Shown: positions 19,668 to 50,590 of the stretch, piece after piece
Numbering within the stretch: the first letter of the stretch is position 1
How the letters are laid out: every line of letters begins with the position of its first letter
Source: Loxodes magnus
Taxonomy: Eukaryota; Ciliophora; Karyorelictea; Loxodida; Loxodidae
DNA length: 64,000 bases
Direction of reading: 5' to 3'
Assembly: GCA_946699065.1 (NCBI GenBank)
Contig: CAMPDV010000005.1
Span: 620,001-684,000, forward strand
Translations under genes and position numbers: made by a program
The notes under the pieces: generated by a model
Seen by the model: the letters and a program-made list of their open reading frames with translations, nothing else
Told to the model about the DNA's origin: nothing
The model's database searches: none

Positions 19668-20870
19668 ATGTACGTTCCTCAATTTATTGAATAGCTTGCA
19701 TCACTTAAAGTTAATTAAAACGAAATTTAGCCTAATTCTTTAAAACCTACAAGCAATAGAAATTCAAGATCTTTAAGCAATAACCAAAGTGAATAAATCA
19801 AATAACCTTCCACTAATGCTGCTTAACTCAAATAACCTTTTTTGGATCTTAATTAACTTAAATAGCCTTCCTCTAATCCTACTTAACCTAAATAACCTTC
19901 CTCTAACCCAACTTAGCTTTAATATCCTTTCTCTGATCCTGCTTAACTTTAGTAACCTTTCTCTAATCCTGCTTAGCCTAAATAATCTTTCTCTGATCCT
20001 GCTTAACTTTAGTAACCTTTCTCTAATCCTGCTTAACCTAAATAATCTTTCTCTAATCCTGCTTAGCCTAAATAATCTTTCTCGAGTTCTGGTTTCTAAG
20101 ATAGAGAAAGTAATTAGAATGTTCTTAGCTCTAAACAATCATCTGATTAGATAGAAATAGATAGGTAAAATGCTGAGTAACAAGAAAAGTAACTTAACTC
20201 TGAGTTATAGTAATAAGCATATGAGACTGATAGATATTTAGCCCAATAATCTTCAGATCCAATTCCTTAAATAAGAAGCAAAAGCAAAATTGTAAATAAT
20301 TTAGACTAAACCCTAGGCCATTATAATTTAAATCCTCAGGAAGACTATCCAATTTTATAAAATCCAATTGAATTTAGAGATTTGATGTATATAGGTTAAG
20401 CTACAAATCTTGAAGAAGATATTAAACCAATTGGTTTAGGAAGAGCAATTATTAAGTCTTCTTAATCTAAATATGAAGGAGAATTTTATATGGGATTTTT
20501 TCATGGTCTTGGACGCTATATTTCTGGAATGTAATTAGCTGAGGGACATGTATATGTAGGATAATTTGAATATAGCTTAAAGTAAGGTTGAGGAATTTAT
20601 GTTTTTTCAGATGGAACTTTACATAAAGGAAATTGGAATAAAAACTAACCTTTTGGATAAGGAACAAGATATTACCATAACGGAGACGAAGCAACAGGTA
20701 ATTGAGCAGGATTTTGATAATGCTATGAAGTTACATATGTTAAATAAGATGGGCAATAATGAAAAGGGGATATTGTAAATGGATAGAAAATTAAAAAGGA
20801 GAGATTTTTAGGATCTTTAGAAGGATGGAGGAAAAATGAACGAGATTAAGCACAAAAAACTAATTAATGA
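19668..20870 (+). CDS. MORN-repeat protein with Pro/Gln tandem-repeat N-terminus
   Basis: A 400-aa protein from ATG 19668 to TGA 20868-20870, no intron. Residues ~53-145 are a tandem array of 10-aa units such as QLQQPFSNPA and QPKQSFSDPA. The C-terminal ~150 residues contain about four MORN repeats: YEGEFYMGFFHGLGRY, YVGQFEYSLKQGWGIYVFSDG, HKGNWNKNQPFGQGTRYY and ATGNWAGFWQCYE. MORN repeats bind membranes or act as linear scaffolds and are frequent in ciliate and apicomplexan cortex, flagellar and radial-spoke proteins. No kinase or other catalytic domain is present, so a scaffold role in the cortex or axoneme is the best guess. Several Trp codons in the MORN part are TGA. The K+ channel gene follows in the same direction 355 bp later. 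Confidence 0.85.
19825..20090 (+). repeat. In-frame 30-bp tandem repeat (about 8-9 units)
   Basis: Degenerate 30-bp units coding ten residues each, alternating QPKQ-SFS(D/N)PA and QLQQ-PFS(D/N)PA types. The units are most alike in the middle and right part, suggesting recent slippage or unequal exchange there. The repeat also creates long open frames on both strands, which are artefacts. Confidence 0.9.
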
Positions 20871-21225: not shown

Positions 21226-24200
21226 ATGGATATTTTAAGAGCACTTCCTACATAAGTTAAAACTCTTTCTAATAATCAACCCAAAAAATCTCTCATTTCG
21301 TCTATGAAAGGCAAGCTCGGAGTAATGTTTTAAAACAAAAAATTAATTTCTGACGTTAGATTACAAGTTGCTAAGGATAGATGGAGAAAACTAAGCACTC
21401 TTAGAAAAGCTTTAGGCACTAAACCTTTGTAAGCTTCTTTATATACTATATAGTAAGTCATTAGGGTCATAGAAACTTGGAAGAAAAAGTACTGCCCTAT
21501 TTGCATCTTCTGACTAAGTTATTTAGATACAAAAACAAAGTAGGAAAAATTTTATAATATATCCAGGAGACAGTTGAAAAGGAATTTTTGACTTCATTAT
21601 CTCAATTCTTATTTTATATTTTTGCTTGATAGTTCCAGTTAGAATTGGTTTTACACTGGAAGCTGTTGGTTTTTGATATTTCCTAGAATTGTTCTTTGAT
21701 TTTTTGTTTGCAATCGATATTATTCTGAGATTTCGATGTGCTTATCTAGAAAATACCGAAGTTGTAGATATTCCAAAAAAAATAGCTTCAAGATATTTCA
21801 AAAGTTGGTTTGCGATAGACTTCATTTCCACTTTTCCTTTTTAGTTGCTAGATAATTAAATGCAATTTGCGAAGCTAGGAAGATTATTAAGAATTATGAG
21901 AATCTCAAAGCTTTTTAGATTAACTAGACTATTTAGAAGTTCCTCAATAACTCAATTGCTAACATAATCTGGAAATATAGACTTTCACTAGATAATGTAT
22001 ATTACAAGAATGGCTAAATTTCTTTTCTCAACTGTAATTCTAGTACATCTATTTGCCTGTTTTTGAAATTTTGTTTCAGAAGGGACAGAGCATCCTTGGT
22101 ATGATAGATATGGCTATTAAAATTATACTTAAGGAGAAAAATATATTGGATGCTTGTACTGGGTTATTACCACCTGGACAACTGTTGGATATGGAGATAT
22201 CCATCCTTTCTATATTGAAGAAATTATATTTACTATCTTTGTTTAGTTCATTGGAATTGCCTTTTTTGCTTATTTAATGGGAAACGTAAGTTCGATGGTT
22301 GCTGACTATTAGAATAAAAAGAATAGAGATACCTCTAGATAAGATAATCTAGACTTATGGGTTATGAAAACTGACCGAGCAAACCCCACAAAGAAACTTC
22401 CAGCTGCTTTACATAAATAAATAAACGAACTATTTACTTACTTATGATCTTAAGAAACCACCTTTATCAAGGAATACGGATTTTTAAGCAAAATTCCTTA
22501 TAACCTTAGAAATCAAGTATTGCAGCATATTTTCTAAGATTTAATCAAATTCTACGAAATTCTTTTTAAAGGATGCGAAGACAATTTCAAGTATGACTTC
22601 ATTCTATCTTTGATGCCTCATTAATATCAACCTAATGATTATATAATTTATGCTTACAAGCCAGTTTTTGAAATGTATCTGGTGACTAAAGGATAAATCA
22701 TAGTATCTTACAAAGACTTGAAATTCCTTACGTTATATGCTAGTAGTTTCATAGGAGAGCATTACATTATATTAAATTGCATTCCTGCTTATAACTACTA
22801 AGCAGGATCTGATGGACTTAACGTGATGACAATTACAAAATCTAAGTTTGTTGATCTTTTAGAGGAATATCCTTAAACTTTCAATTAATTTACAAAAATC
22901 GCTAACGAAAGAAGAATTAAGTTTCTAAAGTTAAGATAAGAAGTAGTTGAAAAGCATAATGAAAAGCATGGATGGCAAAATTTAACTAGAAACAGTAAAA
23001 TGTAAGATATTAAGAAAAAAATGGATAAAGCTTTTGGCTCAAATTAATCTTTAAAATAGTCATTTAGTGAAAAAGATAAGCCTGGATTCCATATTTCCTA
23101 GTTTAGCTCATAGCAAAATTCATTTTCAAGTTCGTTTGTTGAAAAAAATATTTAAAACTTAAGCGCTATGATTCTTCTTGATCCTGATGATGAAAAACCT
23201 AAATAGCAAAACGAAGAAAAAAGCAAAATGGAAAGTTAAATAAGCGAACTTAAAGAAGACATAAAGTAAATTAAGGAAACCTTAAATAATTTAAACAATT
23301 AAGTCTTTTAAAGCTTAGACTCAATAATCGCTCAACTTGAAACTTCCAAAATTGGAAAGAATTTTTCGTATGAAATGGATATTTCATAAGAAGGCTCCGA
23401 TAACGATGAAAATGCTACAACGAAAATTGATTTTTAGGAGAATAACCAAGATCCTTTTACTTAAAAGCTAATAAGCAAACTAAAAGCGGTTGAAGAAACA
23501 TAAGAAAATCAATAAAAAAAATTGCCTTTTACTAGTTTATTTAAACCTAAATAATAAAATTAATAAAGTATGGAATAGTATCCAGAAAATGAAGAAACAA
23601 CATCACAGTCAGAGTCAACCAAAAAAATGTTTGAATCTCATGAAATAGAAAATCAAAAAAAATTTGACCTTTAGAAAATGAATACTATTAAAGAATAAAC
23701 TTCAACATGCGAGTAGATAAGCATATCTATGGAAAAAAGCTAATTAAAGCAAAAAACTACGTCTCATTTTGAAGAAACTATCTTAAAAACGGAGTAAAGT
23801 TTGAATGAATAGGATAATTCACGGATAAAAAACGAAACTTTGCCAATTTCTTTTAAAAATGTTAGGAAAAATGTTTAAAAAATAAATAAAGCAAAAGAGT
23901 AATATGATACAATTGAAGAACAATAAGAATTCAAAGATTTTGAAACTTAGAACTTTGACACATAAAAAACTTTAAAGTAATCAAATCTTCCAGATATTCA
24001 TAAATCAAAATAGTAGTTGAATAATATATTTGATTTAAATTTAGAACTTGAAGAAAATAACTAAAAGCAAAAATAAAAGTAATAATTCTAAAAATTTGAC
24101 AAAGATCTTGGATAAAGCTAAAATGTGGATCTTTTTGACTAGATAAATTAACATCAAAGCACTTCTAGCACTCTTAACACAATCTAGAAACCAATTTAAT

Positions 24201-31876: not shown

Positions 31877-32155
31877 ATGAATTAAGCATTATGAAAGCGT
31901 CTTACTAAAATAAGAAATATCTTATACTATCTAAAAAAAGATATTGATGAAGTAAAATGGAAAATATTAGATATTTTATTAAAAATAGAAAGAGAAAACT
32001 ACGATTTTATAAAAATAAAAATATTCAAACTAATATAAAAAATTATTGAGGAGCAAAAGTTAATCATTTACGAATATCAAGATAAATTATCAATCTTCAA
32101 GAAGTAAAAATGTAAGTAATCTAGTAGTTAAGAATATAAAAAAGTTAAAAGTTGA
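31877..32155 (+). CDS. Possible small Lys/Ile-rich helical protein
   Basis: A 92-codon frame from ATG 31877 to TGA 32153-32155 (MNQALWKRLTKIRNILYYLK at the start, QEYKKVKS at the end). It predicts amphipathic helices (DEVKWKILDILLKIERENYD) and a basic tail, with TGA as Trp at codon 6. The stop lies 4 bp before the left arm of the glutamine synthetase inverted repeat and 53 bp before the GS stop, so the two genes would be convergent. The composition is close to what AT-rich noncoding DNA gives with only TGA as stop, and I do not recognise a family, so this may be chance. Confidence 0.35.
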
Positions 32156-32207
32156 AATTTTAAAAAAGGAAAGAAAGCTAAATTCGAAAACTTGGTAATT
32201 AAAAATC

Positions 32208-33455
32208 TCATAGTTCAGTCAAAGTTGTCTAAGTTGAAATCGATTCAATTGTGCTTGCATCTGAAAACTTATGAATATTCTTTATTATCGAACCCAAAGT
32301 ACTCTAATCCAATATATTGTAATAACTCTTCTTTTGAAAAACTGCTTCTTCCCATTCAGTACATACTTCACGATATCTTCCACATACATCAACTAAAAAT
32401 TACCCATCTAAACAAACAGTATCAACTATTAATGATGTTACCATATATGGATCCATATTTGCTGCTGGCCTTCTGTCTTCAATATATCCTTTCTTATTCT
32501 CCATTGTCTTCGTTGGAATTCTTACACTCGCTCCACGATTTCCTACTCCCGATGAAAAATGTTTATAACTTGCAGTCTCATGATGTCCAGTTAATCTTTC
32601 AGTATTCGATAATCCATAAAATTACATATGCTTACTATGTGAGTATTCTAATCTATCAATTGCATCCATTATTACTGAAATTCCTCCTTCTTCTCTCATT
32701 TTATTCGTCGAAAAGTTCGTATGAGCTCCTGATCCGTTCCAATCTCCTGATATTGGTTTCGGATGATAAGATATTATTAAAGAATGCTACTCGGCTATTC
32801 GAGTCAAAATATATCTTGCCATTCATAAATGATCTCCTGCTTCTAATCCTCCACATGTTCCTATTTAGAATTCCCATTACCCTGGAAAAACTTCGGCATT
32901 CGTTCCGAAAATCTGTATTCCTGCATATAAACAAGCTTTCAAATGTTATTCCATTACTACTCTTCCTATACAATTTTAAGCATCAACAGAACAGTAATAG
33001 TACCCTTAAGCTTTTGGTACATAGTTGAAAGCTTTAAATCCTAAAGGCCATCCTGTTTTTGTCATTATTGTATATTCCTATTCTATTCCAAACAAACACT
33101 CCAAATCTACTGCTTCTTACATAACTCTTTCGCAAACATTTCTTGTGTTCCATTTCGTTGGTTCTCTGTTGTCTGGTTCTAAAGTTTCACATAGAACCAT
33201 CTTATTAGGTCCTCCTCTAAACGGATCTCTAAAAATAGCAACAGGATGTAAAATTACTTCTTAGTCTTACTCTGTTTTAAATGTAGCTACCCAATCTTCA
33301 ACATCTTCTAAACTTTCTACCTTCTTATCATAAACTCTTGCTTTAGAACGCATTTCTAAAGGAGACTAGCCTATCCAAACATACTCTACTATTACTCTTC
33401 CTTATTAAGACAAACTCTTACTTTTTTATCCTTTTACTGCACCTTTTCTTAGCAT
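32208..33455 (-). CDS. GLN: Glutamine synthetase (GS II), copy A
   Basis: A 415-aa protein from ATG 33455 to TGA 32208-32210. GS condenses glutamate and ammonia with ATP hydrolysis and is usually a cytosolic decamer in eukaryotes. Family motifs are present: [22 protein letters not shown], the metal-binding EQE (Glu125/127), [53 protein letters not shown] and [14 protein letters not shown]. The Trp of GDHLW is encoded by TGA (32823-32825). The N-terminal motif W-x-FDGSST, which supplies the ammonium-pocket Asp, is not recognisable; instead [17 protein letters not shown] is found. The last ~50 residues after CGRYREVC are a Ser/Thr-rich extension. It differs from copy B by two silent changes only. 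The start was chosen at the first Met before EYVWIG. Confidence 0.93.
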
Positions 33456-33607
33456 TTGTTGTGATTGTTAGAGTTGTTATCGTTTTTATACCCACTCTTA
33501 AACACCAAGTTTAAAACGTGTGTTTAAGAAGCCTTAAAACGTAATTTATAGAGAAGCATTTTAAACACCTTAAAAGTGCTAATGAAAGCAAAATTTCTTA
33601 AATTAAA
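33456..33607. promoter_or_regulatory. Divergent intergenic promoter of left arm
   Basis: 152 bp between the GS-A start (-) and the small frame start (+), repeated exactly at 36697-36848 in the right arm. It contains inverted words around tttaagaagcctt and aaacacc/ggtgttt that may be regulatory or structural. Conservation is explained by recent duplication, so it is not evidence of function. Confidence 0.45.
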
Positions 33608-33866
33608 ATGAATGGCTAATAACTCTATTCAGCTAAGAAGCATAGAGCACTTAATTCTGAAGATGAAGCAGATAACGAATGGTTAAGATAAGTAAGTACA
33701 GAAAATAGATGATTAAAATGAGGAAGCTCTAAAGCTTTCTAATATAGAAGTTATAGAATACTAGAGGGAGAAAGGAATAGTTAATAAAAGAAAATTAATT
33801 AAATTAAAGATAAGTAATTTAAGATCATTATAACGAGTATAAGACCATCTAATACCAAGGTACAAT
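33608..33866 (+). CDS. Small divergent frame in left arm, possibly spliced
   Basis: ATG 33608 in good context (aattaaaATG) opens a hydrophilic frame MNGQQLYSAKKHRALNSEDE, then ADNEWLRQ. Unspliced, it stops at TGA 33710-33712 (34 aa). A canonical-looking 17-nt intron GTAAGTACAGAAAATAG at 33692-33708 would instead let the frame run on through the arm end into the spacer (QMIKMRKLQSFLIQKLQNTR and onwards), so the given end is only the end of the shared arm. The same start is present in the right arm. It could be a short protein, the first exon of a larger gene truncated by the duplication breakpoint, or an upstream transcript of GS. No family is recognised. Confidence 0.4.
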
Positions 33867-36437
33867 AGGGTTTCTTTAAAAGACTTATATTTTTAATTAT
33901 TTTAGTTGCTTATCTTTGTTAGCTCAAAGATATTTTAATTTAGATAAGACAAATCATTATTCGATTTAATTCAAGAGTTTTCTAATCTTAAAATAGTTTC
34001 TCTGCTAAATGTTAAATTCTTTACTATAATTTTTTTCTTTGACTCATTATTATTAAATTATCTTTACTTAATGATTTCATACTTTGATTGTTAATTATTA
34101 CTTTTAAAATACTTACTATGATGAAAAATAAGTGAGAAAATTTAATCATTTGGTAATAAACAATTTTAAAAAATCAAAGATTATGATTATATACTTATAT
34201 AAATTTATTATATTAAGACAAAAAAATAGAAGCCAGACTCTTATTTTTATTTACAAAATTAAGCATTTTCAATCCTTCCAAAAAAGGGAAAATGCTTTAT
34301 TTTAATAATAATCTAGTTAGGCTATTCTTTTGCAACGAAATAAATAATTGTAATATCAATTTTATTTGTGATAAAAGCTTTTTGGAGTTAAATAGTTCTA
34401 AAGATATTTCAAAGTACAATTCAACTGTCAATTTATAGCAAGAATTGTTTAAATTTTCTCTTATGATTTATATACTTTTAATACTTTAAAAGCTAGAAAT
34501 TTACTAATTATTTATATTTTTCCTAATTTCTAAGTTATTATTATTCTGATAGATCTTAGTATTTCACTAACTATGCTTAAAATAAAATAACTTTGATATA
34601 TTTTAATTTTTGTCTTTTACTTTTTTAAATATTTTGATTGAATTATAATGTATTCATGGAATAACTCTATATTAAATAGTATACTGACTATAAATCAAAT
34701 TTCAAATATATCCATTAAATTATTAAGCTTATTGATAATTTTCTCATTTCAGTATGTTACAAAGATAGCTAATGATAATTAAGTTTTATTTTACTAAAGT
34801 AGAATCTATTATTTAGCATAATCTTCTAACATTTAGATTATTTATTTTGTTAACTTTATACCTTTTATTGTTTTATGCTTATTAGGTTTTTAATACAATA
34901 AATTAAAAGAAAGTTACATTCTTAATATCTCCCAAAAGAATATTAATTAAGTCTACTATTTTAGATTAGGCTCCAATCTGTAATTCTACTGTTTGCTATT
35001 GATATTCTTGATATATAATTTTACAGTTAGCAATGCAAATTGCTGTTTATTGAACTATTTTAAAATTACTAGCTATATATATTATAAACTAGACACTTCT
35101 ATACATGGCCTAATTTTTATAATTATATTAAGAATTTAAGAATATAAATATATAATAGCCATAGACTTTTTACTATAAATATTTGAGCAAATAGGAATTA
35201 ATCTAGCTTAAAGGAATTTAACTATAGCACAATAAATACAAAATTTTGAGTAAATAGGTTTGCAAATAATTAAGAATGTTAATTATCTATAGCTAGGGCT
35301 AAGAAATATAATTACTATGATTTTTATTATGCTGTATAATAAAATCTTAAAATTATGAAAATTTATATTTCTAACTTGCTTAATGAAATATGTATCAATT
35401 GAGAGTTATTTTAGATAAGTTATACTTAAATAATCTAATCATTTTAGATTTTTTAGGTTATATCCTTAGTCTTTATTAGCATTTTATATTGTGAGATATT
35501 TTTAAATGCCTTCATCTCTTATATGAAGGTTTATAAATCTATTAAGAGTATGAATTATTTTTGAGCTATTTTAAACCTTTTAATTATAATGTCTTTCTAA
35601 TCTTATTAATGAAATTTGGAGATTAATAGTAGTTAATGTAAGGATTGTATAAGTTGAATAAAGTAAATAAATATAGATAAAGTATATTCACTACTTAATG
35701 CCAAGTGACTAAACAGGTAAGAACATCATTTCTGACACTTCATAGTAAAATAGCTAACTAGTTCTAATGCTCTTTTTAAATTATAAAAGGCTGTTCCTTT
35801 ATTCCCTCTTTAGCCTCTCAATCTTATTTTAGAAAAATAAACAGAATTGAAAAAGAAATTAATTTGAAGATAAATAAGTTTATCATAATATAAAATTAGA
35901 TTGCATGCATTTATAAGTTAAATAGTAAAATAAAAGAAGTTCAGTTTAACTCCTTTATTATAATCTACAAGTTAGAAGTGAAAACCTAACAATTATCATG
36001 GAATATATAAATAAAAATTCTGAATAAATAAAGATCATTTATTTTTCTTCTATTATTAGGAACCAAAAGAGTAAAATAATAAGAAAAGTAAAAAATCTAG
36101 GTTAAGTAGTTTATAAAAGAATTTTAAATGCTTTACAAAATAAATCATACATAGAATAAAAAAAAATTTAAGTATGGATTTTAATACCTTTTAGATAACT
36201 TTTTAAATCTACTGTGCTTATACATTTATCAGATAATACTTATATATGCAATTTTAAATATATTAAATAAAATTGCATAACAAACTTATCCAAAACAAAA
36301 TCATATTATTAACTAAATAACTAACAATCGTTAGAACATGAAAATAAAAAAATAAAAATTTTAATTCTAAAAAATTCATGAACTTAAAAAGACATCTTTA
36401 TAATATCTAAACAACAAGATTATATAAAAGTGTCTTA
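33867..36437. other. Spacer between the inverted arms
   Basis: 2,571 bp of unique AT-rich DNA between the two arms, not palindromic itself. I find no convincing gene. A 10-bp perfect stem (AAGCATTTTC / GAAAATGCTT, 17-nt loop) lies at 34261-34297. Confidence 0.6.
34261..34297. repeat. Hairpin-forming inverted repeat in spacer
   Basis: AAGCATTTTC pairs perfectly with GAAAATGCTT across a 17-nt loop. Could be a transcript 3'-end hairpin or chance. Confidence 0.5.
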
Positions 36438-36696
36438 ATTGTACCTTTGTATTAGATGGTCTTATACTCGTTATAATGATCTTAAATTACTTATCTTTAA
36501 TTTAATTAATTTTCTTTTATTAACTATTCCTTTCTCCCTCTAGTATTCTATAACTTCTATATTAGAAAGCTTTAGAGCTTCCTCATTTTAATCATCTATT
36601 TTCTGTACTTACTTATCTTAACCATTCGTTATCTGCTTCATCTTCAGAATTAAGTGCTCTATGCTTCTTAGCTGAATAGAGTTATTAGCCATTCAT
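36438..36696 (-). CDS. Small divergent frame in right arm, possibly spliced
   Basis: Mirror of the left-arm frame, ATG at 36696, same first 28 residues (MNGQQLYSAKKHRALNSEDE onward) and the same candidate 17-nt intron (36596-36612). Unspliced it stops after 34 residues. Beyond the arm end the downstream sequence differs from that of the left copy, so if both are expressed through the breakpoint they would have different C-termini. One base differs between copies near the inner end (36443-36450). Confidence 0.4.
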
Positions 36697-36848
36697 TTTA
36701 ATTTAAGAAATTTTGCTTTCATTAGCACTTTTAAGGTGTTTAAAATGCTTCTCTATAAATTACGTTTTAAGGCTTCTTAAACACACGTTTTAAACTTGGT
36801 GTTTAAGAGTGGGTATAAAAACGATAACAACTCTAACAATCACAACAA

Positions 36849-38096
36849 ATGCTAAGAAAAGGTGCAGTAAAAGGATAAAAAAGTAAGAGTTTGTCTTAAT
36901 AAGGAAGAGTAATAGTAGAGTATGTTTGGATAGGCTAGTCTCCTTTAGAAATGCGTTCTAAAGCAAGAGTTTATGATAAGAAGGTAGAAAGTTTAGAAGA
37001 TGTTGAAGATTGGGTAGCTACATTTAAAACAGAGTAAGACTAAGAAGTAATTTTACATCCTGTTGCTATTTTTAGAGATCCGTTTAGAGGAGGACCTAAT
37101 AAGATGGTTCTATGTGAAACTTTAGAACCAGACAACAGAGAACCAACGAAATGGAACACAAGAAATGTTTGCGAAAGAGTTATGTAAGAAGCAGTAGATT
37201 TGGAGTGTTTGTTTGGAATAGAATAGGAATATACAATAATGACAAAAACAGGATGGCCTTTAGGATTTAAAGCTTTCAACTATGTACCAAAAGCTTAAGG
37301 GTACTATTACTGTTCTGTTGATGCTTAAAATTGTATAGGAAGAGTAGTAATGGAATAACATTTGAAAGCTTGTTTATATGCAGGAATACAGATTTTCGGA
37401 ACGAATGCCGAAGTTTTTCCAGGGTAATGGGAATTCTAAATAGGAACATGTGGAGGATTAGAAGCAGGAGATCATTTATGAATGGCAAGATATATTTTGA
37501 CTCGAATAGCCGAGTAGCATTCTTTAATAATATCTTATCATCCGAAACCAATATCAGGAGATTGGAACGGATCAGGAGCTCATACGAACTTTTCGACGAA
37601 TAAAATGAGAGAAGAAGGAGGAATTTCAGTAATAATGGATGCAATTGATAGATTAGAATACTCACATAGTAAGCATATGTAATTTTATGGATTATCGAAT
37701 ACTGAAAGATTAACTGGACATCATGAGACTGCAAGTTATAAACATTTTTCATCAGGAGTAGGAAATCGTGGAGCGAGTGTAAGAATTCCAACGAAGACAA
37801 TGGAGAATAAGAAAGGATATATTGAAGACAGAAGGCCAGCAGCAAATATGGATCCATATATGGTAACATCATTAATAGTTGATACTGTTTGTTTAGATGG
37901 GTAATTTTTAGTTGATGTATGTGGAAGATATCGTGAAGTATGTACTGAATGGGAGGAAGCAGTTTTTCAAAAGAAGAGTTATTACAATATATTGGATTAG
38001 AGTACTTTGGGTTCGATAATAAAGAATATTCATAAGTTTTCAGATGCAAGCACAATTGAATCGATTTCAACTTAGACAACTTTGACTGAACTATGA
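36849..38096 (+). CDS. GLN: Glutamine synthetase (GS II), copy B
   Basis: A 415-aa protein, ATG 36849 to TGA 38094-38096, predicted identical to copy A. The catalytic residues visible are Glu125 and Glu127 (GIEQEYT), the His of GAHTNFS, the Arg of NRGASVRIP and Glu of YIEDRRP; the invariant Trp of GDHLW is TGA at 37479-37481. As in copy A the FDGSST loop is replaced by VATFKTEQD, so the change predates the duplication or has been homogenised. The silent differences are TGG GAG (B) against TGG GAA (A) near residue 363, and TCA (B) against TCG (A) in HFSSGVGN. The gene points outward from the palindrome centre. No intron is needed. Confidence 0.93.
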
Positions 38097-38146
38097 GATT
38101 TTTAATTACCAAGTTTTCGAATTTAGCTTTCTTTCCTTTTTTAAAT

Positions 38147-38852
38147 TTTAAAATTAAATATTTTAATAGATTTATAATATAAATCATTTAAATAATAATT
38201 TTTATATCAAACTTATTAAATATCTTTTAAATTTATTTTAAATTCTTTGATATAAGGATCTAATTCTAGATGAATTATTAAAAGAGCACTAAAAATTTAC
38301 TTTATTTTAGTTTTTGAATATAAGCTTCATTCGTTTAGATGACCTTTTATAATAATTAAGTAAAAAATCCAATTTTTTGTCTACTTCCTAGTCTAGTTGT
38401 GTATGCCTATTATATATTTTTAATAATATATTCAATAATATATTCCCTATTTATTAAACCCATTTAATGTCTTCAGTATACTTCAATTGCTTATTTTATT
38501 ACTTAGTATTTTATCTTTGGTAGACTTTAACATCAATTAAAAGTTTTTTAAATTTTAATATTAGTTATGATTATTTATATGGCTTTCAGTATTATTCTTT
38601 AACTATCTAAATAAATAAGCTTTAAGCATACTATTGTTTTAAATATCATTAAAATGATTAAAGAATTTAATTAATAATAGCATTTGCTTGCTTAATAATA
38701 TGAGTTTTCTTATTTTAACTGTCTTATATTTTATAATTTTTATAGCTTTATGACGAAAATAAATAATAATCATTTATTTTAGGATTTTTAACGAAGGAAC
38801 TTTAAATTGATTCTAATTACTTATTTTAAAATCAGATTACTTAGAAAGTTTT
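38147..38852. other. Intergenic between convergent genes
   Basis: AT-rich gap between the GS-B 3' end and the DDI1 3' end. No gene seen. Confidence 0.6.
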
Positions 38853-40100
38853 TCACAAATTGAAAAGAAAACTTGCCGCTTCATCGACGTTTCCAGTTTG
38901 TCTAAGTGCTTCTATTGCTTGCTCCCTAGTAAATCCTAAGTTTATTAGCTTTTTAATATCTTATTCGTTTAAATTTTACTGTCTCTGAGGTTGTTGTTGT
39001 TATTGCTGCTATTGCTGTGGCTTAGGTTGTTATGATGGCTTTTATACAGGTTATTAGACAGGCTATTAAGCAGGGTTTTGTACATTTTTAGTAATTTATT
39101 AAAACTCCTAAAACGATTTTTCTTATGCCTCTAAAAAGCTTTCATCTTCTTTAAATTACTAAATAGAATCTCTTTTTATTTCTCCTTCACTCAAAAAAGG
39201 AACAACGACTTGACATTTATTTAAGTTTAGAGTATTAGTAGCTAAATCTATACAGCATTAATGTCTCCTTAGCATATCTAAACCTAAAAGCATGTCTATC
39301 TTATTATCTTCAAGGATTGTAAATGAACACATAAAAAAATTGCTACCTATTTCTAACTGAGCTGCGTGAACTCTTCCAAGAATTTTGCTTTATCCGATAC
39401 CTATTGCCATTCCTTAAAACTTTTTATCCAAGAGACGCATTAATCCGCAAGCACTGGCACATCTCTCTGACATAATAGTTTATTAAGCACCAGAATCAAC
39501 AAAAGCTTAAATTTTGATATTATTAACTTTCACATCAATATAAAGCATTACAATATGTCCAAAAGTTTCAGGAATATTTTCATAAGCTGTTTCAAGATTC
39601 TCTTCTATATTCTTTTCTTAAATTATTTTTTCAATCTGTTGCTATGCTTTTGGATCTAGTGGATCGAAATTCAACTGCTAAATCTACTACATATTCTGCA
39701 TTTCCTGCATCTTTTTTTCCATGTCTTTTTATTTTAGCATTTCAATCAAAAGTAAAGAGTCTTCTGAGAGAATTGCTTGTGCATAGTCAGGATTTTGATG
39801 TAGCAATTATTGTAATTACTAAGGATTATTTTTGTAATATTACTATAATTCCTCTGCAAGTTCTTCATAAGTTTAAGCCTTTTTAACTTATAACTGGAGC
39901 AGATCATTATCTTTGATTTAATACTGTTGTAGGGACATGAAATCGTTTTGTAGCCACATATTATTAAAAACTATCATTTGTCTCTTAACAGGAATTTCAG
40001 TTTGAATTTCTAGCAATACTTTTATAGATTCCAAGGTATCTTAAGGCTCAACTTCTAGATTGAAAAATACTCCATTTGGAGCAGCTATAGTCAATTTCAT
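38853..40100 (-). CDS. DDI1: DDI1-type ubiquitin shuttle/aspartic protease
   Basis: A 415-aa protein from ATG 40100 to TGA 38853-38855. DDI1 delivers or cleaves heavily ubiquitinated proteins at the proteasome. All parts are in order: an N-terminal ubiquitin-like domain (residues 1-75, [19 protein letters not shown]), a helical Gln-rich linker (~80-165), the dimeric protease-like domain (~185-305) with the active-site VDSGAQQTIMS (Asp202) and the second signature [17 protein letters not shown], a Pro/Gln-rich spacer (~345-370) and a C-terminal UBA domain ([19 protein letters not shown], ending ASFLFNL). This is the host's own conserved gene, not a retroelement. The UBA ends exactly at TGA. 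No in-frame TGA separates it from the upstream four-TM gene. Confidence 0.95.
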
Positions 40101-40301
40101 TTTAAAGTTATAAAATTAATAAAATCTCTTAACTTAAGGGAAATTAATAGTTTAGAACTTATCAGAAGGTTAAGAAAATCCTAGAATAAGATATCTTATT
40201 TTATAATATCTTATGCTAGTCAATTCTATTTAAATGAGTAGAAAATATTTATCAAGGTTAATGATATAAAGTAGCTGATTTACTTTAATCTATTTATTAA
40301 A

Positions 40302-40880
40302 TTATTTTTAAAGTCTATATCCAGTTCCACCAAAAGGTATATATGTTTGCCCCTAACTTTGAGAAGATGCATTCAACTATTAATTTTAACCTCTTCTGCC
40401 AAGCCACCCTCCAGTTTAGCCTGAATCTTAATTTCCATAGCTAGCCATACGAGTACTAAACATTCCCATTCCTACCGGTACTCCTTATTCCTAAGAGCAA
40501 GCTTTGAATTCTTTATATCCTTAGAAAGATCAATAAATAGCAAATATGTAAAAAGGAACTAGAATAAATAAGACATAGCTGTAAGCACCAACCATAATAT
40601 TTGTCTATAAGATAGTTCCAAGTTTAACAAAATCAGTTACCAAGTCTGATAAGCTGAAGATAATATAGATTAATAAAGTACAAGAGTCCATTCTAGAATA
40701 ACCACACCAAAGAATCCAAGAGAATATTAATAAGTTAAAACCTGACCAGGGATTCATAAACAAAACCAATATTCCTATTGCTAATTGAATATAAAATACT
40801 AATCTTAATTTCTCTACCAGATGCAAAGCTTTTTACGATGGATCAATTAGAGGTGGACCACCACCGAGGCAATTTCCCAT
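40302..40880 (-). CDS. Four-TM membrane protein with acylated N-terminus; 3' end unclear
   Basis: Frame from ATG 40880 (or ATG 40886, two codons upstream). Starting at 40880 the protein begins MGNCLGGGPP: Gly2 with Cys4 is a strong myristoylation plus palmitoylation pattern, which favours this start. Four hydrophobic segments follow (LVFYIQLAIGILVLFM; LLIFSWILWCGY; LLIYIIFSLSDLVTDF; YVLFILVPFYIFAIYW), then FQGYKEFKACS and a cytosolic Gly/Gln/Ser-rich tail ending near QTYIPFGGTGYRLQK. The GYKEFK motif after the last TM recalls SCAMP-like vesicle proteins, but I cannot assign it. No in-frame TGA occurs before the DDI1 ATG, so the end given is approximate. A ~58-nt intron from about position 40281 would place a TGA directly after its splice site. 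Confidence 0.7.
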
Positions 40881-47933: not shown

Positions 47934-48326
47934 TCAATAGAAGAAACCAAGTATCTTCCCTCCAACATGCTTCTTTTTAGCTTCCTCATGATCCATTATT
48001 CCATAAGTCGTAGTAAGAACAATTTTGCCGAATTGACGAGATGGAAGTAAATTTGCTGCATATTTTTCTATATCTGCTAATCCCATATCAAATCGAGGGC
48101 TGATGACTCCTACTTTGTTTAACCTACCAATTAATTCAACAACTATCTTATTTGCTCTATGGTCATCTATTATTTCGAACTCTCCAATATATCCGTCTCT
48201 TTGCATAACTTGAAGGAATCTAACTACGACTTTTGAGACAGGGTGGATTAAGACTTATCTCTTTCCTTTCTTCTCTGCGTTTACTATTGATTTTAAGCAA
48301 TCGGCTAGGACTCCTGCTCTCACCAT
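47934..48326 (-). CDS. RPS15A: 40S ribosomal protein uS8 (RPS15A)
   Basis: A 130-aa protein, exactly the eukaryotic length, from ATG 48326 (context attaaaATG) to TGA 47934-47936. uS8 binds helix 21/25 of 18S rRNA in the small subunit. Conserved blocks run the full length: [94 protein letters not shown] and the C-terminus [19 protein letters not shown]. The family ends in GFFY, which is followed immediately by TGA, so TGA must act as a stop here. No intron is needed and codon use is less extreme than in neighbours, as expected for a highly expressed gene. Confidence 0.98.
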
Positions 48327-48943
48327 TTTAATACAAATAACTCTAAATAAATAAAATATTTAAACTAACGTTTATTATTAACTATCAACTTCCTCTTTAA
48401 TTACATCTCTTTAAATGTTTGGAATTCAATTGTCATTTTATATTCCACTAGCATCAAAAAATTAAGTGTGATAGATCAATTATGTATTGTATCTAAATAG
48501 TTGAGAATAAATCTCTCTCATTAATAAAAGTTGGTAGTAACATCCTTTTTCTTAAAAGACTAGATGTTTCATCAACAATTATTTCATTACTATCCAAAGG
48601 TAAATCCTTGAGTATGTATCACTAAATTATTTATATCAGATTATTAAAGCAAAATATTTAAAAAGTCATCATTAATCTCATTTTATAGATATATTTAAAT
48701 TCGATATGATAAAGACTAAACATCTCAAAATGATAATTCTTTCACTTAGATTTTTATTTCATCTCACTTTCAAGTTAAAAGCTATAACAAAAATATTAGA
48801 TGAACTTAGTTTAATTATATACGATAATTTATTCTACTTATTACCTGTTATAATAGACAAAACTAAATAGTTTTTTAAAATAGAATGAGCTAAAGGATTT
48901 TTAATTTGTTTAATTAAATTTAAATGTAAACTAAGTATTTAAA
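48327..48943. other. Intergenic, AT-rich
   Basis: 617 bp between uS8 and the PDI-like gene. It should contain the uS8 promoter and the PDI 3' end; no motif stands out. Confidence 0.6.
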
Positions 48944-50422
48944 TCAGAGATCCTCTTTCTATACTTCTTCCAATGTTTCCTATTTATTTCCATAATTTAA
49001 GACATTTTCCACATCCAATTTATTTGTACAATAGTGGCTTAGTCATTCAATTACATACTCTTTTTAAAATATTCCAGTATAATTGTATTGATTTTTATTT
49101 TCAGCAGTATAGAGAGTTAGAACTGGATAATTTTCAATATAGACATCTTCTAAGTCATTTTTATTCATATCTATCTAGGCTAGCAATAACTATTCGTTGT
49201 ATCTTTCAAGTATTTTAGGTAGTGTAACATATTCTTTATAAACATTTTCACATAGATCACAATAATGGATAAAAAAGAACACTACTACATCTATTTCCTT
49301 CTAATATACTACATCTTTGAAATTTTTTCCTACTAGTACTCTTATATCATTAATGTATTCTTTTTCTGGAATATCTTCGCTTTTATAGAAATTTTTTAGC
49401 TTTCCATTCTTAAAGTTGTTGTAAAATTTCAGTATGTTTGATTAACTGAATTTATCTTCCATCTTATGCTTTACTAATTACTTCTAAGGCTATTAGAGTA
49501 CTATCCAAACTGATGGCTATTCCTTAACTCCTAAATACTTACCTAGATCTTCTCCTAATCTCTTATTAGAATCTGCATAAGTAAAGATTAGGTTGCGTAT
49601 ATCTTCTGATAGCTCATTAAATATATTAATAGACTTTTTATCACTTTCATTGACAAACAAAATTATTCCTGGATATCCTCCTTAAAATATGGTATGATGT
49701 ATTTGATCGTCAATTTCAGCTCCTCTAGGAACAGAAAAAAAGTTAATATAATGCCACACATCATCTACCTCCCATTTTCCTGTGTATTGAACAAACTTTT
49801 CATCAAATGTTTTTAAAATAGCGAAATTATTCTCTCTTATATTATAAATCTTTGTTATTTATTTGTTACCTATAAAGCCACACTTTATATAATGAAGCTC
49901 AGCACATACTTATTCAAACTTATCGAAATTTTCATCTTTCTTGCTTCCATAAAACAAAGGCATTACCTTCCTTTCTTTCAACTCATTTTAGAAGTCTCTC
50001 ACTTCCCAAAAATCTATAACTGATGGCTTTCTTTTTTCATTAGCAAATTTTTTAATATTCTCAAATTTGGGTTCTCCCATGAATTAAACAGGCCTTGCGT
50101 CTTAAAAGAAGAATACTAAAAGAGGAACATCTTTAACATTCATTTGATCAGCTGTATCTTTATTTGTAGAGATATCAATCTGAGAAAAGTAAATAGGCGG
50201 ATTCTCTTTAAGTAGTTAAGTTGCTATTCCTTCTAAAGTATTTTAAAACTCTTGACAAATACTGCAACTTGGTGAGTAAAAGAAGACAAAAATACCATTT
50301 GGCTAATACTTCTCAATAATCATGAAGAATATTCCATCATCAAGTTCAATAATAGGTTTATCTTATTAGCCTAGGACAGACAAGGTCTGTAGAAATATTA
50401 AGACTCCTTATATAAATTTCAT
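48944..50422 (-). CDS. PDI-like protein with two thioredoxin domains
   Basis: A 492-aa protein from ATG 50422 to TGA 48944-48946. The N-terminus MKFIQGVLIFLQTLSVLG is a signal peptide. The first thioredoxin domain (~25-130) has FFYSPSCSICQEF with Cys53 and Cys56 in place of the usual CGHC; the cis-Pro context is NVKDVPLLVFF. Two redox-inactive thioredoxin-like b and b' domains follow (~135-365), and a second domain with FFFIHYCDLCENVYKEY has Cys388 and Cys391 and the cis-Pro motif IENYPVLTLY. The order a-b-b'-a' is that of classical PDI, which forms and shuffles disulphides in the ER lumen. Both active sites are unusual (CSIC and CDLC), so its redox behaviour may differ. The C-terminus ends in KEDL, a plausible KDEL-type ER retrieval signal. 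A sense TGA is in VIEWLSHYC. Confidence 0.92.
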
Positions 50423-50590
50423 TTTATTTAAAAGAGTTATATCAAATGTAAATAATACCTACGTGTATTAAAAGCATACTTCATCCTATAAAGTCAAGTA
50501 AATGCTTCAACCTTTAAATTCTTATCACTCTAGTTATGGTATTGAGGAATATAATCAGTTAATTGAAAAAGTAAAATAATAAAGAGAGAT

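Follow-up and report, generated by a model that had tools for sequence, protein, structure and literature searches.

Does a second copy of a glutamine synthetase (GS) gene in the ciliate Loxodes magnus mean more glutamine synthesis? The question is raised by a window of 64,000 nucleotides (assembly GCA_946699065.1, contig CAMPDV010000005.1, positions 620,001 to 684,000), in which two long arms, each bearing a GS-like gene, lie as nearly perfect reverse complements on either side of a spacer. The duplicated gene product is probably a re-purposed GS relative and not an ordinary enzyme. On balance we favor the view that a GS-like gene was recently duplicated in inverted orientation and that its product, which would make little or no glutamine, may serve as a non-catalytic or regulatory subunit.

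By descent the window protein is a type II glutamine synthetase (GSII), as its core has the sequence and fold of that type. It scores 361 bits against NF041605, below the curated cut-off of 500 bits, as does the paralogue L010 (420 bits), which carries the ammonium-site motif W-N-[YF]-D-G-S-S. This motif is absent from both window copies. Among 111 homologues (those of 300-450 residues in the 120 listed, out of 7,994 found), its D is present in 110 and its G in all 111, with a single sequence (P0013) lacking DGS[ST]; smaller comparisons used 21, 23 and, for the tree, 16 of the same 120 homologues, hand-picked for spread. The EQE, QWE, HTN, HET and EDRR motifs are all present in the window pair, which also retains YYC. 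Compared with the eukaryotic type II enzyme (GlnII, decameric), the window protein differs not only by the broken motif but also by G30Q, S65Q, W121L, G158D and other changes, and by an additional tail of 42 residues. It departs from the 111 listed homologues at 15 columns conserved in at least 90% of them.

A protein search of the assembly (705,730,643 bases, 7,843 contigs) returned ten GSII-type genes of two kinds. Five, located on C89, C1, C6 and C15 (two genes), carry W-N-Y-D-G-S-S without exception. The GS-like set without the motif comprises the window pair and the genes at C4:840421, C7:1505039 and C358:221011 (hereafter C4, C7 and C358). In the latter three, three other residues come after the Trp and lead into a longer basic loop, the loop of the window pair being shorter. 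In the phylogenetic tree, the four distinct GS-like proteins group together (100/100), as do the five motif-bearing ones next to them (100/99), and a single clade unites both groups (100/99). The 42-residue tail (QSTLGSI ... ISTQ.TL) is common to the window pair, C4 and C7, its first half is found in C358, and it is absent from all five motif-bearing genes. C358 has all five catalytic motifs; its protein was ended by hand after NISPRATANN, since no TGA closes the frame, and was used in this form in the tree and in the substitution analysis. C4 and C7 lack EQE, QWE, HTN and HET, the metal-site and catalytic motifs, retain EDRR alone, and can therefore hardly be working synthetases, and their frames are open up to a TGA stop. 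The motif-bearing set is itself not wholly canonical, as in L013 HTN is replaced by HAN and EVMP by ESML. Two further genes of the GS superfamily, L016 (C1:1642193) and L017 (C31:214987), match PF00120 with 278 bits each and share 70% DNA identity over 1.1 kb; the best NCBIfam match of L016, below the cut-off, is type I glutamate-ammonia ligase.

As the ammonium motif is broken, the proteins belong to a paralogous clade of their own and five motif-bearing genes lie elsewhere, the name glutamine synthetase given to the pair in the initial annotation holds for family and fold and probably falls short as a description of function. For the same reasons the dosage increase proposed there does not follow from the additional copy, which need not raise GS activity.

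The ratio of nonsynonymous to synonymous substitution rates (dN/dS) in the core ranges from 0.11 to 0.22 between the four GS-like lineages, with saturated dS of 1.3-2.3; two motif-bearing pairs gave 0.02 and 0.17. The first run did not include C4 and was repeated with C4 on a new alignment. For the tail, dN is 0.16-0.30 among the window pair, C4 and C7, and 0.50-0.53 against C358. Judged by these rates, the core is under constraint.

What the loss of the motif may do is indicated by two other enzymes. In type I enzymes (GSI), D50 is described as deprotonating ammonium and contacting the flap of the neighboring subunit (PMC6529630). In Fusarium GSII, exchange of residues at the putative NH4+ site (D60A/S62A), taken to be the same D-G-S, is reported to cause glutamine auxotrophy, with regulatory effects kept and the ammonium response lost (PMC3829961). 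Together, these data suggest that the window pair makes little or no glutamine. The loss of metal-site motifs from C4 and C7, together with the new tail common to the clade, makes a non-catalytic or regulatory subunit the favored role. From sequence we infer the loss of glutamine synthesis, the role of the protein and the origin of the duplication. One transcription unit would have given rise to an inverted copy of itself 2.6 kb away, either recently or with later gene conversion. Its product retains the GSII fold, carries a broken ammonium motif and an additional C-terminal tail, and would make little or no glutamine. It would have been kept as a regulatory or non-catalytic subunit, which perhaps enters decamers together with the five motif-bearing GS. 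More tentatively, ammonium-blind GS pseudo-subunits with their own tail might join motif-bearing GS in such mixed decamers, the duplication doubling the dose of a regulator and not of an enzyme. Since GS active sites form between neighboring subunits, in GSII as well, pseudo-subunits would switch off or tune individual sites. The intersubunit active site has been described for GSI (PMC6529630).

Several observations weigh against this favored reading. Retention of EQE, QWE, HTN, HET and EDRR in the window pair makes some activity possible, and the Fusarium D60A/S62A protein, reported to be below detection on blots, is an imperfect guide (PMC3829961). A 21-nt GT...AG stretch (37014-37034, forward strand) lies exactly at the broken motif and is a possible micro-intron: its length is within the reported size range of L. 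magnus introns, among which multiples of three are reported to be depleted (PMC11441545), and its removal would make the loop shorter still. The GS-like clade is defined within this one Loxodes genome, and saturation of dS leaves the dN/dS values rough. Constraint is weaker on the tail than on the core, and for the window pair itself two silent changes do not suffice to demonstrate selection.

Alternatively, the GS-like proteins could be altered ligases joining glutamate to an amine other than ammonium, although this appears unlikely. GlnA3 and GlnA4 of Streptomyces, PauA7 and Haloferax GlnA-2 are, like the window protein, GS relatives with changed residues at the ammonium site (PMC6529630, PMC8998196, PMC8394153); as in the window pair, the ammonium residue D50 is not conserved in GlnA4, PauA7 and GlnA-2, while Streptomyces GlnA2 is reported to retain it. 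The other catalytic motifs kept by the window pair and C358 would suit such an enzyme. However, these amine ligases are prokaryotic, were compared with GSI-type enzymes, and have also replaced Tyr179 and E327. The window pair keeps YYC and HET, and it is because this Tyr and the flap Glu are unchanged that an amine-ligase role is less likely; moreover, C4 and C7 of the same clade are without metal-site motifs. Rather improbable is the reading in which the window pair still makes glutamine, the changed loop being tolerated, and the duplication raises GS dosage. The five retained motifs and purifying selection on the core are in its favor, but the D and G of the motif are nearly invariant among the listed homologues and both are present in 5/5 sister paralogues, and the Fusarium D60A/S62A enzyme is reported to be unable to form glutamine (PMC3829961).

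The inverted duplication is most likely real and recent, and in itself it is ordinary, like other recent gene duplications. Base-by-base alignment bore out the arms proposed initially, including their outer edges (Table 1). Although repeat detection drew the edges wider (32140-33866 and 36438-38164, 99% identity), the extra outer 19 bp are alike at just 12/19 positions, so the edges at 32159 and 38145 are correct. Length and identity exclude chance likeness. Two of the three differences (32349/37955 and 32550/37754) fall at third codon positions and are silent, so that, as predicted, the two encoded proteins are identical, and the copies score alike in the genome search; the third (33856/36448) is noncoding and close to the inner edge. 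When the arm was searched against the assembly, matches of ~100% were found at the two copies only, with eight more places at 68-70%. The spacer, claimed to be unique, matched over its full length only itself, besides four short matches of 53 to 181 bp at 70-85%. Both searches scored best candidates only and skipped very common words, and the spacer search also skipped simple repeats. No Pfam domain was found in the six-frame translation of the spacer. Self-comparison by blastn (E 1e-10) detected no second inverted match of 150 bp or more in the window, and none at all in 15/15 other stretches of 9-10 kb; this control is small (204 kb in total) and non-random, as 10/15 stretches are GS loci. 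The segments around two motif-bearing genes on C15, L009 and L013, share 73% identity over 4.6 kb, lie ~437 kb apart with opposite orientations, and represent an older inverted duplication within the same GS family.

That one locus was assembled twice in opposite orientations is very improbable. The published assembly is described as unphased, made with Falcon at an identity threshold of 0.96 and ~20-30x coverage (PMC11441545), which would allow such an error, but the spacer is unique, the flanks differ at all four arm edges, the arms differ at three positions, and one contig of 2.18 Mb bears both. Transposition of the arm was also considered and rejected: direct repeats at the arm borders reach at most 6 bp for the left copy and 5 bp for the right, lengths that random places often attain (at least 5 bp in 652/2000 and at least 6 bp in 248/2000). 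Terminal inverted repeats of the arm were not seen by eye. Elsewhere in the genome the right flank (38146-38855) has 15 matches, of which 14 cover ~93 bp at 77-78% and the remaining one ~50 bp at 86%. Three of these loci align with it in many equally poor AT-rich registers, and hence we claim no mobile element. The loci L051, L052 and L053 represent a repeat of at least ~2.9 kb with ~16% GC that is 96-97% identical across three contigs and whose matches beside the right arm look like AT-rich chance.

The two genes are arranged head to head, with their 5′ ends facing the spacer. The DNA match to the C7 paralogue stops short of the 411-bp segment upstream of the right copy. L. magnus 3′ untranslated regions (3′-UTRs) are reported to have a mean length of 53 bp and a median of 41 bp (PMC11441545). 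The outer arm edge thus lies approximately at the expected end of a Loxodes 3′-UTR, so that the duplicated piece, and each arm, would correspond approximately to one transcription unit. Both copies are presumed to be expressed.

Table 1. Features of the inverted duplication in the window (positions are those of the 64,000-nucleotide stretch)
Feature	Positions	Strand	Remarks
Left arm	32159..33866	-	1,708 bp; reverse complement of right arm, 3 differences
Right arm	36438..38145	+	1,708 bp
Spacer	33867..36437	.	2,571 bp, 19.8% GC
GS-like gene, right copy	36849..38096	+	415 codons and TGA stop
GS-like gene, left copy	32208..33455	-	Same protein as right copy
Upstream segment, right copy	36438..36848	+	411 bp inside arm; presumed promoter and 5′ leader
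Upstream segment, left copy	33456..33866	-	Same 411 bp
Stop-to-edge segment, right arm	38097..38145	+	49 bp
Stop-to-edge segment, left arm	32159..32207	-	Same 49 bp
Broken ammonium motif	37011..37040; left copy 33264-33293	+	Residues 55-64; replaces W-N-[YF]-D-G-S-S
In-frame TGA read as Trp 211	37479..37481; left copy 32823-32825	+	W in 108/111 listed homologues
C-terminal tail	37968..38093; left copy 32211-32336	+	Residues 374-415; shared with C4 and C7, partly with C358

Three differences over ~724 near-neutral sites (264 synonymous and 460 noncoding) amount to ~0.4%, below the heterozygosity of 0.6% reported for L. magnus (PMC11441545), so that the divergence of the arms does not exceed that between two alleles. 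The alternatives offered in the initial annotation, recent duplication or gene conversion, are therefore supported; both fit the sequence likeness of the arms, and the two are inseparable here.

The GS-like coding sequence (33.7% GC) contains 13 TAA, 5 TAG and 2 TGA codons, one TGA internal and one terminal. For L. magnus, a coding GC content of 33.5% and TGA as either Trp or stop are reported (PMC11441545). Both copies are open over their full length only if TAA and TAG are read as Gln and the internal TGA as Trp, with the terminal TGA as stop, which is the karyorelict nuclear code (NCBI table 27). The bacterial code yields no GS frame, and code 6, with TGA as a stop, gives a truncated GS of 210 residues in both copies. 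A cyclic-nucleotide-gated/K+ channel-like gene in the window (21281-22950, forward strand) has five in-frame TGA codons. In an alignment of 48 of its 70 homologues, Trp is the commonest residue at two TGA columns (33/48 and 17/48); the remaining columns are less telling (L 14 and W 13; F 20 and W 6; residue 9 mostly gap). In sequence terms, the channel gene supports the ambiguous TGA code. As the internal TGA of the GS-like genes sits at a nearly invariant Trp and the unrelated channel gene shows the same use, a pseudogene reading based on TGA is rejected. That both copies are nevertheless pseudogenes on their way out, as their long branches and the departures at 15 conserved columns might imply, is the least probable explanation of all, given 415 codons without a frameshift, C4 and C7 frames open to a TGA stop, a C358 frame open over the GS part, and the low core dN/dS between lineages.

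Other genes of the window include a DDI1-like gene (38856-40529, reverse strand; ubiquitin, retroviral-type aspartyl protease and UBA domains), with its 3′ end 710 bp past the right arm, a ribosomal protein S8 family gene (47955-48455, reverse strand) and a protein-disulfide-isomerase-like gene (49046-50506, reverse strand). A tandem array of a 30-bp unit (19800-20083, 9.5 copies) overlaps coding-like composition.

Both the GS-like gene and the inverted arms have parallels. Lengsin, a GS-like protein of the vertebrate lens, is said to be without GS activity; it is not a GSII and its lineage is unrelated to that of the window pair. Gene-bearing inverted repeats kept alike by conversion are exemplified by the human Y palindromes, which share with the Loxodes locus nearly identical arms with a gene in each and a unique spacer. 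Compared with these, the Loxodes arms are small (1.7 kb), and conversion is not told apart from recency. Fusarium GSII, proposed to be an ammonium sensor or 'trigger enzyme', is described as an enzyme in which catalysis and regulation are separable and the putative NH4+ site matters (PMC3829961). However, in Fusarium one protein performs both tasks, whereas in Loxodes separate paralogues would. The term 'glutamine synthetase' has no occurrence in the main text of the Loxodes genome paper (PMC11441545), its supplements not being covered, which falls short of showing that the literature is silent on these genes.

Given the near-zero divergence of its arms, the locus is a good place to seek gene conversion in a ciliate, and the germline and soma of Loxodes are reported to appear unedited (PMC11441545). 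The GS-like subfamily is nevertheless more interesting than the duplication, as it changes the meaning of the second copy, which brings no simple rise in GS dosage. Naming such genes 'glutamine synthetase' by family match may mislead metabolic models. With five of ten GSII genes lacking the ammonium motif, four lineages under constraint and a shared tail, Loxodes would clearly illustrate how an essential decameric enzyme can yield catalytically impaired relatives.
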